Below the pieces are notes generated by a model. That model was given only the letters and a program-made list of their open reading frames with translations, did no database searches and was not told where the DNA came from. Made by a program: the position numbers and the translations under genes. A stretch of DNA of 64,000 bases from the NCBI RefSeq assembly GCF_900142465.1, contig NZ_FRAX01000001.1:186001-250000 (forward strand), read 5' to 3'. Numbering within the stretch: position 1 is the stretch's first letter; the number at the start of each line of letters is the position of its first letter. The stretch comes from Fibrobacter sp. UWH6 (lineage in GTDB: Bacteria; Fibrobacterota; Fibrobacteria; Fibrobacterales; Fibrobacteraceae). This document shows, piece after piece, positions 6,813 to 27,556 of the stretch.

Positions 6813-7157
6813 CTAAGCTTTGTAAGCGGCTTTCTTTTCGGCCACGGCAAGTTTGCGGGTAACCTTTCTCTTTGTAGGAACTTTAGGAACCGCGATCATT
6901 TGAACATTTAGTGCGTTCAATACGCGTAAAATGGTGTCAAAACGGGGGTGAGCATCTTCATTCAGCGCCTTGTAAAGACTTTCTCTGCCGAGGCCTGTTG
7001 CTTTTGCAATTTGTGCGATGCCGCGAGCTTTGGCTACGTATCCAATGGTCCTCAACAAAACGGTGCTGTCGTTTGACTGCAATGCGTCGCTGATGACTCC
7101 CGCGATAACCTCCTCGTTATCCAAAAGCTCTGATAAATCCAGCTTACTTGTTTTCAT
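6813..7157 (-). CDS. HTH antitoxin of a RelE/HigB-like pair
   Basis: 114 residues from the ATG at 7157, chosen because GGAGG lies about ten bases upstream; longer in-frame starts run into the toxin gene. An Xre/Cro-type HTH is visible at residues ~45-85 (ARGIAQIAKATGLGRESLYKALN), followed by PRFDTILRVLNALNVQM, typical of the 'addiction module antidote' family paired with HI1419-like toxins. The Lys-rich tail is basic. The gene overlaps the end of the toxin gene by 14 bases, indicating translational coupling. The toxin-first order matches higBA-type operons. It is expected to neutralise the toxin and repress the operon. Confidence 0.88.
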   Translation of the reverse strand: MKTSKLDLSELLDNEEVIAGVISDALQSNDSTVLLRTIGYVAKARGIAQIAKATGLGRESLYKALNEDAHPRFDTILRVLNALNVQMIAVPKVPTKRKVTRKLAVAEKKAAYKA

Positions 7158-7449
7158 TTTGAATCGTCCTCCACATTTCCTTTGCCTTTTCAATGTCTCG
7201 CCGTTGTGTTGATTTGTCTCCACCACATAGGAGAATGATTACAACCTGTCCCCGTATGGCGTAGTAGAGCCTATATCCAGGTCCAACATCGAATCGCATT
7301 TCGGATATCCCGTCGCCAATGTTTTTGACATCACCAAGATTTCCTAGTTCAACTCTCAATAATCGAGAGAATATTCTCTGCTTTGCCTGATTGTCCTTAA
7401 GGTTCGCGTACCATTTAGAGAAAGTTTCAGTTTTCTCTATTGAAAACAT
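7144..7449 (-). CDS. RelE/ParE-superfamily toxin (HigB/HI1419-like)
   Basis: 101 residues from the ATG at 7449, preceded by GGGAGG seven bases upstream. The sequence follows the 'phage-derived Gp49-like / HI1419' toxin pattern: ETFSKWYANLKDNQAKQRI, then RVELGNLGDVKNIGDGISEMR, GPGYRLYYA and VVILLCGGDKSTQRRDIEKAKEM. Members are usually ribosome-dependent mRNA interferases. Size and all family motifs are intact, so the pair is probably functional. It is encoded upstream of, and overlapping, its antitoxin, and the cassette is bracketed by the direct repeats at 6726 and 7516. Confidence 0.9.
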   Translation of the reverse strand: MFSIEKTETFSKWYANLKDNQAKQRIFSRLLRVELGNLGDVKNIGDGISEMRFDVGPGYRLYYAIRGQVVIILLCGGDKSTQRRDIEKAKEMWRTIQNENK

Positions 7450-7463
7450 CTTACCCTCCCAAA

Positions 7464-7481
7464 TGTATCTAATCGGATACA
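7464..7481. promoter_or_regulatory. Candidate operator before the toxin gene
   Basis: The inverted repeat TGTATC-TAATCG-GATACA lies 15 bp upstream of the toxin start, where an autoregulating toxin-antitoxin complex would bind. Inferred from position and symmetry. Confidence 0.5.
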
Positions 7482-7515
7482 AAGTGTCAAGTGCATTACA
7501 TGTGTACTCATCGTT

Positions 7516-8191: not shown

Positions 8192-9907
8192 ATGAGCCAG
8201 CCTTCTACATGGTCGGAGACCCTCGTTTTTATTGGTGCCGGAGCTTCGGCCTTGCTTGGCATGCCCCAAACCAGTGAACAAACAAAATTTTTTCGAGAAT
8301 TATCAAAATTCGGTGGTCGTAAGAGCCTGGCGAATTTCACGAATGATTTTGCGCAAAACGACCTGAATCGCCTTGAAGATTTTCTTATTCTGCTTGGGGA
8401 CGACAAAACAGACGAAGATTGCTGGCTAGAAATTACAAATGGTGAGCTAGCCGCAGCGCGCAGGGCCTATGGTTCCGCAGGTGTAACTCCACCAGACGAA
8501 ATCCTGAAAAAAAGGATTCTGGAACTTCGCCATTCATACGACTGGCTGGCCCTTAAGCAGATCATTTCCATTTGCCCTTGTGACGAAGGAAACGACAACC
8601 TGATTCGTGATGTCTATACCCTGCTCGATAAAAAGATGAACGCCAAGCAGGGCATCAAGGTTCGTGCGGCGATCGGCGATAAGGATGAAATTGTCATAGA
8701 CTACAGCAGGCTTAAGGGGGCGTACGCCTGCGTTATCTGTTTTACGGTAATCCTTTTCGCAAAATCTTGGAAAAATCTTGCAGAAGGCGAAAAGGCTGAG
8801 ATGTTTTCTAGCTACAAAAAGTTTGCAGAAACATTCGCTCGCCTGATGCAAAAGGAAAGTTTTGCTTTTGCCGAAAAATACCCGGACCTGACAAGCCGCG
8901 AATTTTACCAGTTCAGTACCTCTTTTGTCTCCTTCAATTTCGAAACCGTTTTCATGTGGCTCCTGTTCAATGCGAACCGCGAAGTGAACCACTTTGATAA
9001 GTATTTGAAGACGGCTCAAAAGGTGGAGCAGTGGCTGGATTTTGGATTCCAGACCAAGAGCCGAAAAATTTCAAGTAAACCAGAAGATCGAAAGTCCGAA
9101 AAGTTCTCCTATTCCTACGACGAAGTGGTTGCCTTTAGGCAGAATGAATGCAAGGCTTCCGGGTCACCTGTTGGGCGTATAGGCAAGTTCTTTTTTGCCC
9201 ACGGCAGTTCCAACTGGCGTGAATGCCCCGCCTGCGGGCGTATGATGTATTACCTTGGCGACGAGTGGGGCTATGGCTCAAAACATTTGAACCCACCTTT
9301 GCCTGTGCCTCTGTTTGAAAACGATAATTTTAACCGCACAGAAAACGAAAAACGCTGGCGTAACGAATCATTGCAATCGGATGCCCTAGAGTGTGTTTCC
9401 TGTGGGGCAAAGACTTTTGCCAGTAATTCGCCCATGATTATGCAGACCATGATCAAGGGAACGCCGACATCGTTCCTTGAAGAAGTCCAGCGCGAAGTTC
9501 GCGTGGGCCTTGAAAAATGCCGGCATGTGGTTCTGCTGGGGTACTCCTTGCCTGTAGATGATGTTGTGTGGATACAGACTTTTACAGAGGCCATTCGTTG
9601 CCGAATAAACTCCGAAGAAAAGGCGTATTGTAGCGTGGTTGTGGGGTATAAAGGTGAAAAACGATGGATGTATGGCGAAGAACTGAAATGTTATGCAGAT
9701 GCCCATCGTTACGAAAAGGAAGCCGATGCGTATGGGGCTAAGGCTATAGAAAGTGTAATATCCATTTTCGGTGCCGAGAATGTTCGTGCGTACTGCGGTG
9801 GAATCCCTCAGGTCTGGGGTGACGCAACCGAAAATGAATTGAAGGAAATTCTCTATCCGCAGAGCTGGAATGCGGATATGTGGAAAGGAACGAGATTGGA
9901 AAAATAA
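8192..9907 (+). CDS. SIR2-domain protein, probable NADase of a defence system
   Basis: 571 residues. SIR2 landmarks appear in order: VFIGAGASALLGMP (13-26, NAD-binding glycines), SFNFE (247-251, in the place of the TxNxD motif), FAHGS (335-339, catalytic His), CPAC (345-348) and CVSC (401-404) as a zinc ribbon, and LLGYSLPVDD (448-457). About 220 residues of helical insertion separate the first two motifs, which is more like the SIR2 proteins of anti-phage systems than like protein deacetylases. Such proteins often hydrolyse NAD on infection and stop growth. The start ATG lies four bases after the previous stop, with no strong ribosome-binding site, suggesting coupling. A zinc ribbon as complete as this is more typical of true sirtuins, so deacetylase activity is not excluded. 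Confidence 0.85.
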   Translation: MSQPSTWSETLVFIGAGASALLGMPQTSEQTKFFRELSKFGGRKSLANFTNDFAQNDLNRLEDFLILLGDDKTDEDCWLEITNGELAAARRAYGSAGVTPPDEILKKRILELRHSYDWLALKQIISICPCDEGNDNLIRDVYTLLDKKMNAKQGIKVRAAIGDKDEIVIDYSRLKGAYACVICFTVILFAKSWKNLAEGEKAEMFSSYKKFAETFARLMQKESFAFAEKYPDLTSREFYQFSTSFVSFNFETVFMWLLFNANREVNHFDKYLKTAQKVEQWLDFGFQTKSRKISSKPEDRKSEKFSYSYDEVVAFRQNECKASGSPVGRIGKFFFAHGSSNWRECPACGRMMYYLGDEWGYGSKHLNPPLPVPLFENDNFNRTENEKRWRNESLQSDALECVSCGAKTFASNSPMIMQTMIKGTPTSFLEEVQREVRVGLEKCRHVVLLGYSLPVDDVVWIQTFTEAIRCRINSEEKAYCSVVVGYKGEKRWMYGEELKCYADAHRYEKEADAYGAKAIESVISIFGAENVRAYCGGIPQVWGDATENELKEILYPQSWNADMWKGTRLEK

Positions 9908-9919
9908 AAGGTGAATGTC

Positions 9920-10633
9920 ATGACAATAACCAAAGAAAAACATTCCTTCAATTTTGTTGGAGGAGATAAACTTAGTAGTATGGGTGCGACATGGTTTGTC
10001 CTGTATCATTACTATAAAACATCGGATTCTTCCTATGATAAGTGGAAGGAAAAAAGTGAAAACAGTGCAAAGATTCGATTGAGCACTTATGAAAAAGAAG
10101 TTGGAAAAAGACTCTCTGATTACGGAAAGGAGAGCGAGTGTGCAATGGAATTTGGAGATTGCAGCATTGTAGAATATTGGCTTGAAAAAATACAAGAAAT
10201 GGATGACTGTAACTTGGACAAGTCTAATTTCAATGTAACCCCAGAGGAAGTGAAAAGGCTTTGTTCTTTAATGCTTTCGCAAATGCGGTTTGGCATTGTA
10301 TGTGTTGTGAAATCTATTTCTATGGGGATGCAGTTTGAATTTGAAATTCTGGGCTGTGAAAATTATTTGCATAGAATCACTGAGAAAAATAATGAACGTT
10401 GTTTGAATTACTTTGTGAAAGGTGACAAAACATCAGCTCTTATGCTTGATTCAAAAACGAAATTCGTTCTAGATCAAGAATCTCCACTAGTCAAAATGTT
10501 CGTTGCTGGTTTTGAAAGTAACCGAAAGATTGAAATGACCTTTAGAGGTGCCGCTTTCAAAAATGTATGTAGCAAATTGTTCGGTGAATTTGTGAACGTA
10601 GAAGAACTCATTTGCGAAGTTAAACTGTATTAA
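9920..10633 (+). CDS. Unrecognised 237-residue protein, third gene of the SIR2 operon
   Basis: I do not recognise this family. ATG 9920 is preferred over GTG 9911 because AAGGTGA lies just upstream of it. The protein is soluble, Lys/Glu-rich, with about eight cysteines, and no signal or membrane segment. The N-terminal part is probably helical (residues 25-110); residues 120-230 alternate in a beta-strand pattern (FGIVCVVKSISMGMQFEFEI). It begins 12 bases after the SIR2 stop in the same direction, so it belongs to the same transcript. Codon use is A/T-rich like the first gene of the operon. A role as sensor or partner of the SIR2 effector is possible but unproven. Confidence 0.75.
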   Translation: MTITKEKHSFNFVGGDKLSSMGATWFVLYHYYKTSDSSYDKWKEKSENSAKIRLSTYEKEVGKRLSDYGKESECAMEFGDCSIVEYWLEKIQEMDDCNLDKSNFNVTPEEVKRLCSLMLSQMRFGIVCVVKSISMGMQFEFEILGCENYLHRITEKNNERCLNYFVKGDKTSALMLDSKTKFVLDQESPLVKMFVAGFESNRKIEMTFRGAAFKNVCSKLFGEFVNVEELICEVKLY

Positions 10634-10671: not shown

Positions 10672-11259
10672 ATGAAAAAAGAAATGATTATGGGAAAAAT
10701 TCTTGTGACCGTAGTCTTGTTAGCTACATTTTCTATGGCGGGAACCATGAAGGATTCCCGCGATGGCAAAACATACAAGACCGTGAAAATCGGCGACCAA
10801 GTATGGATGGCAGAAAACTTGAACTATAAGACCAGCGGCAGCATGTGTTATGACAATAAACTCTCCAATTGCAAAAAATATGGTCGCCTGTACGCTTGGG
10901 AGGACGCAAAGGCTGCTTGTCCAACCGGCTGGCACTTGCCCAGTACGGAGGAATTTGAGACTCTTTTGAGTAATGTTGGATCTTCAAGTAAGGAACGACG
11001 TGAAAATTTGCGTGCTGCTAGTTGGGAAAACGGAGCTGATGAGTTCGGTTTTTCCGCTCTCCCTGCTGGCGACTACAGCAGCAGCCTCAAGCGGTTCATC
11101 AACCTTGGCGACTACGCCAGCTTTTGGTCTTCTACGGAGCACAGATTCAACAGCGCCTACGCCAACTTCCTGAACATCAATGACCGCCACGCGGGCGTCT
11201 ACGACCGCAGCGAGAAGCTCGGCGGCTACTCGGTGCGTTGTCTCCAGGACTCTAACTAG
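10672..11259 (+). CDS. Exported FISUMP-domain protein, probable DGR target
   Basis: 195 residues. A signal peptide occupies residues 1-23 (a hydrophobic run ending in FSMAG), followed by one complete FISUMP domain: RDGKTYKTVKIGDQVWMAEN, NCKKYGRLYAWEDA, CPTGWHLPSTEEFE, LPAGDYSS..., FWSSTEH, and YSVRCLQD at the end. FISUMP belongs to the C-type-lectin-like fold also used by DGR variable proteins. The last third (residues ~127-190, bases 11052-11237) differs from the template-like repeat at 12277-12362 only at template adenines, and most of its codons end in C. The surface of the lectin-like fold is therefore probably diversified. Start: CGGAG about eight bases before the ATG. The ligand is unknown. 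Confidence 0.88.
   Translation: MKKEMIMGKILVTVVLLATFSMAGTMKDSRDGKTYKTVKIGDQVWMAENLNYKTSGSMCYDNKLSNCKKYGRLYAWEDAKAACPTGWHLPSTEEFETLLSNVGSSSKERRENLRAASWENGADEFGFSALPAGDYSSSLKRFINLGDYASFWSSTEHRFNSAYANFLNINDRHAGVYDRSEKLGGYSVRCLQDSN
11052..11237 (+). other. DGR variable repeat (VR) in the FISUMP gene
   Basis: Bases 11052-11137 align without gaps to 12277-12362. All 11 differences fall on adenines of the latter (five-way mix A to G, C or T), while all 59 non-adenine positions match. Beyond 11137 the downstream half has no matching local template, but 24 of its 34 codons end in C, as expected if it derived from AAC-rich template codons. Encoded residues LPAGDYSSSLKRFINL and following form the variable surface. 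Confidence 0.85.
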
Positions 11260-11283
11260 GCTTCCACCGAAGGTGGGAAGCCT
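11258..11283 (+). promoter_or_regulatory. Hairpin immediately after the VR
   Basis: AGGCTTCC-ACC / GGT-GGGAAGCCT with a GAA loop overlaps the stop codon. Studied DGRs need a DNA hairpin or cruciform just downstream of the VR for efficient target recognition; a role here is inferred. A degenerate relative follows the template copy (12475-12511). Confidence 0.55.
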
Positions 11284-11314
11284 AGCCAAGGCTTAGCGAA
11301 GCAAAGCCTTGAAA

Positions 11315-11368
11315 CTCCCCGAAGAACAACGCAGCGCAGCTGCGAAAGTTCTTCGGGGAGAAATTTTT
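11315..11368 (+). terminator. Terminator after the FISUMP gene
   Basis: A perfect 13-bp stem CTCCCCGAAGAAC / GTTCTTCGGGGAG, with a 20-base loop containing further small complements, is followed by AAATTTTTTG. Another inverted repeat, AAGGCTT/AAGCCTT-like, precedes it at 11288-11310. Confidence 0.8.
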
Positions 11369-11384
11369 TGTTTGGTTATAAATA

Positions 11385-12152
11385 TTGCTTATAGACGAAA
11401 TTTACACCGTGGAAAGCGACAACGAATCAAGCATTCACTTGATTCGTGATCGTAAGTTTTTCCAGGCGTACGAAAGGTCCGCATTCCGTTTTGTAAAATT
11501 TCTCCGTGAGTACAAGGTTCACCATAAGTTCGTGAAGAAAATCGGTGCCGATGTCGTGTATCTCGGCTTCCCTGATTCTGTTCTTGATGGTTTGAGGGCC
11601 GAGGCTCAGGATGCCGGCTACGAGTGGAAAATTATTTCCGATGATCGGCATATAGAAATCAGTGGCTTGCCAGAATTAGAATCGTACGATGCCTGGAAAA
11701 CCGGTATTGTTCAGTCTGTAGGCAATGCCTCCACGAATGTTTCAAAGCTTTCTTCAACTGTGGAAACAGTCGTTCCCTTGAAAAAGCTCTTTGTCATCTA
11801 CCGTGAGTTCTATGACCTCACATTGTACCTTTGTCGTTTAACTAGCAAGTTTCATCGAAATTTTAAGTTCGGTCTGGGAGATAAATTGCGGGAGGAATGT
11901 GTATCTGTTCTGGCCGACTTGCAATGTGTCGTCCAGTCAAAAATTGCATTTGAATACGTTCGCCTTGAACGATTTTTGGTTACGTTGCAAATCCGGCTGC
12001 GTTTGCTTCTGGATTTAAAGCAGGTCACCGAGAAGCAGTGGATTTTTGTAAATCAGGCTATAGTCAAACTTCAAAACCTTTTAGGGCGGAATCCGGTAAA
12101 TCAAGGTTTGCCGGAGTGTCCCGTTTCAGAGTCCAGCAGTCCGCTTGCCTAA
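11385..12152 (+). CDS. Avd-like DGR accessory protein with a MutS-I-like N-terminal domain
   Basis: 255 residues. The C-terminal part (~125-235) is a four-helix bundle matching the bAvd / 23S-intervening-sequence family: VPLKKLFVIYREFYDLTLYL, SKFHRNFKFGLGDKLREEC, IAFEYVRLERFLVTLQIRLR, KQVTEKQWIFVNQAIVKLQN, LLGRN. Avd forms a basic pentamer that works with the reverse transcriptase in DGR mutagenic retrohoming. The N-terminal ~110 residues (IYTVESDNESSIHLIRD..., FVKKIGADVVYLGFPDSVL) recall the mismatch-recognition domain I of MutS; this part of the call is less sure. The start is uncertain: TTG 11385 has no clear ribosome-binding site, and GTG 11409 is an alternative. It lies between VR and template, the usual DGR position for avd. 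Confidence 0.82.
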   Translation: MLIDEIYTVESDNESSIHLIRDRKFFQAYERSAFRFVKFLREYKVHHKFVKKIGADVVYLGFPDSVLDGLRAEAQDAGYEWKIISDDRHIEISGLPELESYDAWKTGIVQSVGNASTNVSKLSSTVETVVPLKKLFVIYREFYDLTLYLCRLTSKFHRNFKFGLGDKLREECVSVLADLQCVVQSKIAFEYVRLERFLVTLQIRLRLLLDLKQVTEKQWIFVNQAIVKLQNLLGRNPVNQGLPECPVSESSSPLA

Positions 12153-12196
12153 AACACGTTTTGTGTGAGGGCGAGTAGAAAAACGGCGGTGGAATC

Positions 12197-12478
12197 TTGC
12201 AAGGTCAACTGGATTTGTTCGGCGATTGCAACCTTCTGCAACCTCTTAATAGCGACTGCGTTCAAACGGCTTGTGGTTCCGCTCTCCCTGCTGGCAACTA
12301 CAACAGCAACAACAAGAAGTTCAACAACCTTGGCAACAACGCCAACTTTTGGTCTTCTACGGCTGATGGCGGCGAAGCCTATCGTTTGAATCTGTTTGTT
12401 GATGTCGCGGAGCCAAATATTGAGGGATGTAGCGTGGATAATGGATTCTCTGTTCGTTGTCTCCGGGACTCTAACTAG
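12197..12478 (+). pseudogene. FISUMP 3'-end fragment carrying the DGR template
   Basis: Only the last third of a FISUMP domain is present: SALPAGNYNSNNKKFNN, LGNNANFWSSTADGG and NGFSVRCLRDSN. No signal peptide, GDQVWMAEN or WHLPS motif precedes it; the ~120 bases upstream of 12277 look non-coding. Homology to the gene at 10672 resumes at the stop codon and continues ~40 bases beyond it. The first half is loaded with AAC codons and serves as the template repeat. The second half (DGGEAYRLNLFVDVAEPN...) is not AAC-rich and does not match the VR, so the fragment may be partly decayed or recombined. Confidence 0.75.
12277..12362 (+). other. DGR template repeat (TR)
   Basis: 86 bp starting TTCCGCTCTCCCTGCTGGC and then AAC/AAG-rich codons; 27 adenines in total. 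Eleven of these are replaced in the VR at 11052-11137 and no other base is changed. It lies 125 bp downstream of the avd-like gene, as in classical VR-avd-TR-RT cassettes, but no reverse transcriptase gene follows. Confidence 0.85.
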
Positions 12479-12538
12479 GCACCCACTGAAGATGGGCCGC
12501 CAAGCCTAGGCCTAGCGAAGTAAAACCTTAAAATAAAC

Positions 12539-12570
12539 GCCCCAGGGATCTTTTTCCTTGGGGCTTTCTT
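12539..12570. terminator. Terminator after the template region
   Basis: GCCCCAGG / CCTTGGGGC hairpin followed by TTTCTTTTTT. It also faces the minus-strand ATPase remnant. Confidence 0.75.
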
Positions 12571-12572
12571 TT

Positions 12573-12998
12573 TTACTCCATAATCGGAGCTGCGTATAAG
12601 GGAATGTTTGTCAGTTGGCTTTGCTGTTTGTATGGCAACATGGAAAAACGTACGGCTCGCATGTCTGGAGTTTTTGCGAGGAGCATGCTCAATGAGTTGG
12701 CGCGAACATTTCTGCCGGCCTTCACTTCGATAGGAAGCATTTTCCCTTTGTATTGAACGATAAAGTCCACCTCAAGTCTGGAATCATCGGTTGTGTGGTA
12801 GTATGTCGGAGTGTTTAGTTCGCACTTGATTTGCTGATAAATAAACTGCTCCGTTACGCCGCCCTTGTATTCCGTAAATACACTGTCGTCGATAAGAACC
12901 TGTGACGCTTCGGTATTTACCATGGCTCCCAGGAGTCCGATGTCGAGCATGTAAAGCTTGAAGGCGCTCAGTTCCTCGTAGATTGCAAGGGGGAGCTC
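12573..12998 (-). pseudogene. 5'-truncated AAA ATPase, DUF4143 C-terminal domain only
   Basis: The last 141 codons encode a DUF4143 domain: YEELSAFKLYMLDIGLLGAM, EQFIYQQIK, YYHTTDDSRLEVDFIVQYKG, LPIEVKAGRNVRANSL. In complete proteins (about 400 residues) this follows an AAA domain with Walker motifs. The frame stays open to 14021, but beyond about 12998 it translates as the antisense of the next gene, so the 482-codon ORF is an artefact. The ATPase domain is lost at a junction with the remnant starting near 12985. Confidence 0.82.
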
Positions 12999-13883
12999 CA
13001 GCTTGGCCTGCACCGTGCCGACTATTATCAGCCCTGGAACATCCTGGACGACCCTTCGTACGAGCAGGGGGCCGAGAGTGGGTATGTGCTGGCGAAGGGG
13101 GTGGCGCTCCTTGACGAAGATGGCGGGCTGCTGAACGACTGGAGCTGCCATGACGACGGAAAAACCGCCGAACGGCCTAAGCCCTCGGTGCGTGTTCTTG
13201 CCAAAGATTTGTCTTGGGAGCTGAACAGGAGGAACGAGGTGCAGGTAGTTGTCGAAAATGACGGCACCGTCGCTGTCGATGGTTTCGAAGTCCTGTATTA
13301 CTATCGCGATGCCCAGGGCGACGTGGCCGACCCGGAATACTACGATACCACCTTCGCGAAGGCATCCCATGTTGCGGCCGGCGGCGACCTTTACTACATT
13401 TCGTTTATGTATAAAAATGTTGTCTTGAATCCGGGTGAACGCAATGCGTTCGGCAATGGCGCGAAGTTCGCTTTGCACAACTCCGACTGGGGTGACGGAT
13501 TCAATGCAAATGACGACCCGTCGCACCATGGCCTGGGCAGGGATTTTGCCGTGGCCGACTCCATAGTGGTGCTCGACAGGAACGGGAACCTGCTCTACGG
13601 CGGCGTTCCGCAGCCCCGATTTGCGGACAGCGTGGTAGTGAAAAATGTTTCGGAGAGCCGCGTGACCCGCGTGGGCGACGTAGTCTATGTGGAAATCGAC
13701 GCCGAGGGCTACTACACCCTTGAAATTGAGAATGCAGTCGGCGCCCCGCAGGCGAAACTGTTCGAAGGCAAGTGGGGCGAGGGCACCCACATGGTGGTGA
13801 TCCCTGCCGACAAACTCAAGCAGGGCGGCTACCTGGTGCTGCGCAACGGCAACGTGATTCTCAACTGGCAGATTTTCAAATAA
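12999..13883 (+). pseudogene. 5'-truncated secreted beta-sandwich protein
   Basis: Frame and sequence style run from about 12985-12999 (ELQLGLHRADYYQPWNILDD) to the stop at 13883, with no start codon or ribosome-binding site at the 5' end; GTG 13086 is merely the first start codon in frame. The visible ~290 residues contain NEVQVVVENDGTVAVDGFEV, an Ig/CARDB-like strand pattern with YISFMYKNVVLNPGER. It ends in a domain resembling type IX sorting tails (GYYTLEIENAVG..., GGYLVLRNGNVILNW). GC content is distinctly high. Function unknown; a carbohydrate-binding extracellular protein is plausible. The missing 5' half ends at the same point where the minus-strand ATPase is cut. Confidence 0.7.
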
Positions 13884-26600: not shown

Positions 26601-27556
26601 GTTTCTGCAAACGCGTTGTAGAATATCAGGCTTCCCAGAAAGAAAAACGCCCGCCCATGAACAAACGCCTGATTGAAAGCCTTGTGATGGCTGGTGCGTT
26701 GGACGATTTCCCTGGAAGCCGCGCCGCCTTGATGGCCTCTGTAGACAAAGCTATGGACGTGGCTGCGAAAAAGCAGGAAGACCGTGACCGCGGTCAGATT
26801 TCCCTGTTCGATATGGGCGGTGGCGAACCGGCTATGGATAGTTCCGCCGAAGTTCTTGAAGAAGCGGAAGAATGGACCGCCATGGAAATGCTCAACAAGG
26901 AACGGGATATTCTGGGCTTGTTCCTGTCGGGCCACCCGCTGGATGAATTCCGTCCGGAACTTCAGGGCTTTAGCACCTGTTCCCTGGCTGAAGATGAGCT
27001 GAGCCATCATGTGGGTGATGCCGCCGTGGCCGTTGGCGGTGTGGTCATCAAGTTGAAGTCCATCGAAACGAAGAAGGGCGATACCATTGGTGTTGGCACC
27101 ATTCAGGATTTCCACGGAGACCTGGATGTCTTCTTCAAGAAGGATATGTGGGAACAGTTCCGCGATACCGTGACCATCGATGACCGCGTTCTGATGAAAG
27201 GCTCCCTGGAACCGCAACGAATGTCTGATGGCCTCCAGCTTGTTGTGCAGGAAGTCATTCAGTTGGATCGTGTCCGCTTCGATATGGTGAAATACATCCA
27301 TATGGCCATTCTCTCGAACATGGTGGATGAAGAATTTGCCGAGAAACTGCAGGACTTGATGGAACGTAACGCCCCCTTCGTAGAAGAAGGAGAACGGGGT
27401 TGTGACCTGATTTGTCATGTGGAATCTGAATCTGGCAACGTGCATGTGCTTGCTCTTAAAAAGAGCAAGGTGGTTTATTCTCCGGAACTTCTTGGAAAAC
27501 TTCGTAAAGAACTCGGCGCTATCAAGGTGTGGGTTTCTAGCAATGCAAGAAGGTAA
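23687..27556 (+). CDS. dnaE: DNA polymerase III alpha subunit
   Basis: 1289 residues, the replicative polymerase. An N-terminal PHP domain (HLQTHSEFSVL, LTDHGAMFGILEF) is followed by the PolC-type polymerase core: GPGRGSAAGSLVTYIIGITD and the catalytic DIDTDFADRDR, then QTGVHACGVVI, LIAMNALYRPGP and GYAFNKSHAAAYA. The OB and tau-binding regions follow. An insertion of about 70 charged residues lies between the PHP and palm parts (around residues 305-380: KDKKKKVQEQYCAEKG...). The PHP metal site appears partly intact. Start: ATG 23687 right after a TATATT box. The last 14 bases overlap lpxB. Confidence 0.98.
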   Translation: MAFVHLQTHSEFSVLQASARLDDILAAAAKDNAPAIALTDHGAMFGILEFQTRGQGLNKKRKGDGQPPLKTLYGCHVYIDTPSATSKDNLTYERLTLLVENEKGYYNLLRIVSYRYEDGDRWAEIPSVPLETVEEFKEGIIAIAGDFFSKYGQSVAAGRNSVAREYMESLDKIFDHDHLYFGVCDNGVPQQKLVNDFTVQLANELGREVVAVGDVHYINKEDAQAHKILRCISTKTTLNDAGDKRFPTDGFYYQTEEEMVAKFGHIPGAIENTVKIAERCNYTVKTGIGDEFWPRFAIPKDFLEGEEYQNIKAIMKAEYDAEYPVVRERELKGVIKDKKKKVQEQYCAEKGIEPDALTDDDKAEIDRLSAPEFFNEDDNKAWDKAVHRWCKPGSDSDIYIIHLCNGFLKWRFPEENFKFPEHTTDVGARMYKELNCIRNMNVAGYLLIVWDFINWARNNGIPVGPGRGSAAGSLVTYIIGITDIDPLKFDLLFERFLNPERVSMPDIDTDFADRDRGRVIDYVTQKYGKECVGQIITYGMLKSKAVITDVARVLGIAPADAKAVTKLFPQRTLNFSLKQAWTGKDKKGNNLEDDYSPEPLQALIKSRAMYQTLWDTALMLEDLPRQTGVHACGVVITPTPIYNLAPLYRAAPEDTPVVMYDKHYAEDIGLLKMDFLGLINLSIIQDTVRMVKQNRQIEVDMSHIPLDDKATFDLLSKGMTTTVFQFESPGMQKYLRELKPNRIGDLIAMNALYRPGPIDQIPHFIARKLGNEEIDCYHPDLEEVLGETYGVIVYQEQVMKLAQILGGYTLGGADNIRRIMAKKMPEKMAKLEPEFFEKCVNKGYDKAMIQKVWNAVLPFCGYAFNKSHAAAYAYVAYQTAYLKTHYGPEYMAASMTSKMGKTEDIVTIILECKRLDIEVVSPNINASVGEFIANEKGQILFGLAGIRNVGSAVVEDIVAERERGGKYTDLFSFCKRVVEYQASQKEKRPPMNKRLIESLVMAGALDDFPGSRAALMASVDKAMDVAAKKQEDRDRGQISLFDMGGGEPAMDSSAEVLEEAEEWTAMEMLNKERDILGLFLSGHPLDEFRPELQGFSTCSLAEDELSHHVGDAAVAVGGVVIKLKSIETKKGDTIGVGTIQDFHGDLDVFFKKDMWEQFRDTVTIDDRVLMKGSLEPQRMSDGLQLVVQEVIQLDRVRFDMVKYIHMAILSNMVDEEFAEKLQDLMERNAPFVEEGERGCDLICHVESESGNVHVLALKKSKVVYSPELLGKLRKELGAIKVWVSSNARR

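Follow-up and report, generated by a model that had tools for sequence, protein, structure and literature searches.

A probable decayed DGR in Fibrobacter with a truncated template repeat and an MSL-Avd-like accessory gene

The DNA analysed here, a stretch of 64 kb from Fibrobacter sp. UWH6 that is called the window throughout, carries a FISUMP gene followed on the same strand by an accessory gene and by a partial repeat of the FISUMP sequence (Table 1). A variable repeat (VR) is placed at the 3' end of the FISUMP gene, a target of the C-type-lectin-fold kind, and ends near its stop codon. An earlier note on this DNA had located the VR in the lectin-like part of an exported FISUMP protein: the FISUMP assignment is confirmed by the TIGR02145 and Pfam matches, the lectin part corresponds to a weak Lcl_C match found besides Fib_succ_major in the target (10672-11259), and export to a signal-peptide-like stretch at the N-terminus that was judged by eye only. 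The IMH feature is present after the VR, with its conserved CGTTGTCTCCAG end, and the target site (IMH-like end plus stem-loop) is intact.

Several genes flank this region. Upstream lie a toxin-antitoxin pair of the HI1419/HI1420 type on the minus strand (6813-7482), a gene that is SIR2-like by eye only and has no family match (8192-9907), and a gene for a 240-aa protein of no known family (9911-10633), which among 80 genomes of the genus occurs only in the window and in one relative, G032. Downstream (12573-13010 and 13086-13883), a DUF4143 gene of which the C-terminal portion is present (E = 1e-19) abuts the 3' part of another ORF, one on the other strand. The gene pieces at 12573-13883 are possibly further deletion scars beside what we interpret below as a DGR remnant.

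Table 1. Features of the locus and of the second DGR in the same genome
Feature	Position	Strand	Basis or remark
Target FISUMP (Fib_succ_major) gene, 195 aa	10672..11259	+	TIGR02145 E 2.3e-55; PF09603 E 4.9e-29
VR part with template still in genome	11052..11137	+	differs from 12277-12362 at 11 sites, each a template A
Remaining VR up to target gene 3' end	11138..11249	+	follows G030 TR, changes mainly at A
IMH-like conserved VR 3' end, has TCGGTGCGTTGTCTCCAGGACTCT	11224..11253	+	common to TR/VR 3' ends of the C5 and G030 DGRs
Stem-loop at and just past target stop codon, a feature of DGR target sites	11255..11285	+	fold -19.8 kcal/mol
Accessory gene: N-terminal MutS-domain-I-like (MSL) domain and Avd four-helix bundle; 255 aa, TTG start	11385..12152	+	profiles, predicted fold
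Truncated TR, 5' 86 bases only	12277..12362	+	83/86 identical to G030 TR, 25/25 A conserved
Second FISUMP gene 3' end joined to TR, stop codon 12476-12478	12363..12478	+	Fib_succ_major profile; not TR-like
FISUMP-type downstream tail: weak stem-loop and terminator-like hairpin	12479..12570	+	resembles tail of FISUMP gene after Avd in G032
Intact DGR	G000:C5:212231-214842 (L001)		order VR, accessory, TR, RT

The two repeats (11052-11137 and 12277-12362) align over 86 bases without gaps, exactly as the earlier note had claimed, and on realignment all 11 mismatches fell on adenines of the downstream copy. That note had counted 27 template adenines and 59 other positions; the recount gave 25 and 61, and its statement that none of the others is changed holds (0/61 differences). 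Its hand-calculated chance of roughly 5 in 10 million is close to the hypergeometric probability of finding 11 of 11 mismatches on A (P = 1.8e-7). Every change (11/11) affects the first or second position of a codon in the target ORF (10672-11259). The upstream copy is a VR, the downstream copy a template repeat (TR), and together they form a DGR-type pair. Beyond these 86 bases the relationship breaks down: VR positions 11138..11249 do not match the window's own 12363-12448, so that their template is gone from the locus, and when the whole pair including 12363-12448 is compared, just 28 of 79 mismatches are at A.

It appears that the TR is a stump. The earlier note had overlooked this truncation: 86 of about 200 bases remain, and there is no 3' end leading into a spacer or a reverse transcriptase (RT) gene. 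The measure of completeness comes from the closest cassette found, on contig C36 of G030, a Fibrobacter MAG that according to its contig record derives from horse faeces. It comprises, in this order, FISUMP targets, an Avd gene (about 80% identical), a TR of ~200 bases and an RT, with the TR running into the RT within one ORF; its VR differs from its own TR at 32 of 200 positions, all 32 of them A. The three differences between the window TR and the G030 TR all spare the adenines of the window TR, and the identity ends at 12362. From there the sequence continues as the 3' end of a FISUMP gene, and the fused ORF (12197-12478) matches positions 125-187 of the 187 of the Fib_succ_major profile (E = 3.9e-6). 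The block TTTTGGTCTTCTACGG is common to TR and FISUMP genes. No close donor of 12363-12478 was found in this genome, where matches were limited to IMH-like ends. The tail at 12479..12570 matches the terminator of the second FISUMP gene of G032 only moderately, and its first part is equally close to the tail of the window's own VR.

The earlier note had reported no RT at this locus, and protein and DNA searches across the 64 kb of the window revealed neither an RT nor a fragment of one. Its overall description, a DGR-type VR/TR pair with an Avd-like gene and no RT, is thus supported by the A-only mismatches, by the absence of the RT and by the profile and fold matches of the accessory protein described in the following paragraph.

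The accessory ORF (11385-12152) is intact and sits between VR and TR. Its Avd-like character, already recognized in the earlier note, is seen in weak profile matches to NCBIfam DivGenRetAVD (E = 1.1e-4, below that model's cut-off) and PHROG Avd (E = 9e-5), and in the predicted structure (mean pLDDT 71), in which there are two domains. Residues 132-235 are predicted to form a four-helix bundle, the closest structure being Bordetella Avd (8ub8; Z = 13.2, rmsd 2.3 over 102), and the predicted fold of residues 1-87 matches MutS domain I across numerous entries (Z up to 8.5, with rmsd 2.5 over 85), a match in which Foldseek concurs. A profile search against the sequences of solved structures gave no match for the accessory, whereas the fold comparison did. 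Pfam MutS_I matched 2 of 14 accessory homologues weakly (best E = 0.006). The name MSL is said to come from a large DGR survey. MSL is a known DGR accessory that carries the Pfam MutS_I label (PMC10053308), and because folds resembling both MutS domain I and Avd are predicted here, the protein most likely fuses MSL with Avd. Relatives were found in 27 of 168 Fibrobacterota genomes, from 10 genera, most of them matching over both domains, and also in IMG/VR, where several contigs, 12-43 kb long, have the RT as well (L148-L156); none of the phage records encodes a close relative. The accessory gene of G030 (L076:4023-4646) adjoins the intact RT and carries an in-frame gap of ~48 residues in its MutS-like domain and linker. 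The VR/TR differences of G030 are A-only despite this loss.

Among the 80 genomes of the genus surveyed, the accessory was found in 11 and an RT match, in some cases weak, in 16. Of solved structures, a DGR RT is the closest to this RT family (8ub7, E = 1e-42). In G032 the upstream genes are the same as those of the window (88.8% identity), the accessory is cut at residue 229 and a complete FISUMP gene follows directly; neither TR nor RT was found in that genome. Between the window and G032, differences at fourfold sites amount to 34 of 230 (14.8%) in the adjacent SIR2-like gene and to 22 of 66 in the accessory, a higher share than in that flanking gene. Because the accessory diverges more than the flanks, exchange of cassettes between lineages may have occurred. 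An immediate relative that has otherwise the same flanks together with an RT, and so would display the state before deletion, was not seen; the flanks of G030 differ. Other loci, in G003, G064 and G024, have broken or partial RTs or accessories. In G034, G027 and G036, genomes with no DGR RT, TR-like FISUMP genes show an excess of changes at A (L108, L110, L111, L120 and L123), and their sequences suggest that they are likely fossil VRs.

The earlier note had proposed a search of the rest of the genome for a DGR-type RT and for other templates that fit the window VR. One such RT was found, that of the intact DGR on contig C5, which belongs to a different DGR lineage; no second RT was found anywhere in the genome. 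The C5 VR and TR differ at 30 of 206 positions, 30/30 at A. Two further FISUMP genes differ from the C5 TR almost only at A, C5:209814-210021 (28 A changes, 4 non-A) and C2:241252-241455 (34 A changes, 4 non-A), plus a 6-base insertion, and therefore the C5 DGR appears to have several targets, its neighbour and these two genes. As a template for the window VR the C5 TR does not fit: it shows 37 non-A mismatches, compared with 0 and 4 for the other C5 targets, which rules it out as the writer of the window VR. A third DGR relic lies on C6 around 26797-26958 (L035:64-1665), where, behind a FISUMP gene, 78 aa of the accessory N-terminal (MutS-I-like) domain are left; no RT was seen nearby.

In our view the locus is very probably a decayed DGR, in which a cassette that was complete until recently lost the 3' part of its TR and its RT through a deletion from TR to FISUMP, leaving the VR frozen. 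The ancestral order would have been target FISUMP gene with VR, MSL-Avd accessory, TR and RT. The cDNA made from TR RNA would have carried random bases in place of adenines and been inserted into the VR of the exported C-type-lectin-fold protein. Later the TR would have recombined, at the common block, with a FISUMP copy lying beyond the RT, and the resulting deletion would have taken out the TR 3' part, the whole RT and the 5' part of the downstream FISUMP gene, so that the VR would now be fixed at its last variant. Such recombination is the likely mechanism of loss; in support, the accessory of G032 is immediately followed by a FISUMP gene whose terminator resembles that after 12478.

Observed directly are the A-only differences, the point at which the TR is cut, the complete cassette of G030, the lack of an RT at the locus and the misfit of the only other TR, whereas the mechanism of recombination, the order of events and the present inactivity are inferred. 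The VR past 11137 still looks written from a TR and follows the G030 TR and not 12363-12448; therefore the last writing would have used a longer TR and the deletion would have come later. The last writing of the VR itself appears recent. If rates were similar and cassette and flanks shared their history, as this dating assumes, and if writing had ended with the split from G032, a neutral TR stump alone would have stayed unchanged with a chance of about 0.9%, (1-0.074)^61. Since no non-A site has changed, against 14.8% of the fourfold sites of the flanking gene, the loss of the RT probably postdates that split, and the RT of G032 was probably lost in a separate event, with another junction. In the Bordetella system that has been studied, the RT-Avd complex is brought in by RNA lying downstream of the TR, and synthesis of the cDNA begins from the 3' end of the TR (PMC12875486). 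The window lacks the TR 3' end and the downstream RNA region, save for the IMH-like end that the FISUMP fragment supplies, and because the recruiting RNA and the cDNA start are missing the locus is, by analogy, most likely inactive in spite of its intact target site. The earlier note had left open whether the RT acts from another locus or was lost recently; recent loss is favoured, because in a relative this cassette still includes its RT and the window TR is cut mid-way and joined to unrelated FISUMP sequence, and the first option is disfavoured by the mismatching C5 TR.

Continued activity in trans, in which the RT (and Avd) of C5 would write the window VR from the local TR or from the C5 TR, is an unlikely reading. 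The C5 RT is intact and appears to serve two targets besides its neighbour, the IMH-like ends of the window and C5 are similar, and Thiohalocapsa is reported to have RT-less loci that are diversified in trans (PMC10907252). A target that is served in this way agrees with its TR at non-A sites, however, and the window VR departs from the C5 TR at these sites; the window and C5 accessories are just 44% identical; and the VR 3' half is not derived from the chimeric TR. Use of the local TR by an RT in trans is unlikely because this TR is itself cut short, without its 3' part or the sequence leading into an RT. A variant in which the chimeric TR is still transcribed and used by the C5 RT, rewriting the first 86 VR bases only as a two-component RT-less DGR satellite, is less probable still.

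It is similarly improbable that the RT is missing through an assembly error, that is, a false join at the common FISUMP block in a locus that truly has an RT. The join does fall in a block common to FISUMP genes and TRs, and the genome is in 50 contigs, but this block measures about 17 bases, and the usual assembly words are longer. Moreover, the window is internal to a contig of 441 kb, the assembly is 99.99% complete with no second RT on any contig, and in the independent assembly G032 the RT is absent next to the same neighbours. Finally, that the repeats are ordinary FISUMP paralogues with an A-only pattern due to chance or codon bias, a reading akin to one that the earlier note had named as able to overturn its own, is scarcely credible, for although such paralogues are abundant and carry the same block, the pattern has the low P value given above with no non-A change, other FISUMP copies differ over the same 86 bases at A and non-A sites alike, intact DGRs of the same design occur in the genus, and 12277-12362 is directly orthologous to a TR abutting an RT, that of G030, which refutes this reading.

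Steps of DGR loss can be read from these loci: the cassette is whole in G030, its TR is a stump in the window, and a truncated Avd with targets only is left in G032. Blocks of identity between TR and FISUMP genes may make such cassettes prone to deleting their own RT, and self-deletion would help to explain why a DGR RT occurs in just a minority of Fibrobacter genomes. The MutS-I/Avd fusion would combine two known DGR accessory types in a single protein and may offer a handle on how mutated cDNA is treated at the target.

A literature search found no study of this Fibrobacter cassette, and the closest comparisons are with other groups. Degenerate RT-less DGR loci are known from Thiohalocapsa PB-PSB1, where, as here, the VR target is kept, the RT and other machinery are missing and an intact DGR is present elsewhere in the genome (PMC10907252). 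Those RT-less VRs of Thiohalocapsa that match the intact TR at all non-A sites are thought to be served in trans, and MITE-like arrays replaced the RT there (PMC10907252). The window VR does not match, and FISUMP-mediated deletion would account for the loss of the RT here. Treponema denticola SP32, like the present genome, contains a complete DGR and the leftover of a different type, with repeated gain and loss within the group (PMC4891356); that leftover is a target gene, whereas here Avd and part of the TR remain too. With Bordetella phage BPP-1 (mechanism: PMC12875486) the locus shares a lectin-fold VR target, IMH, stem-loop, Avd, TR and A-specific change; unlike BPP-1, it has no RT, its TR is short, its accessory has an extra MutS-I-like domain and its target is FISUMP and not Mtd. 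Fib_succ_major targets of DGRs are known from a survey of human microbiomes, in which this same domain family was only listed among the targets (PMC4159848). RT-less degenerate DGRs and Fib_succ_major targets are therefore already known, and this locus adds a well-resolved case.
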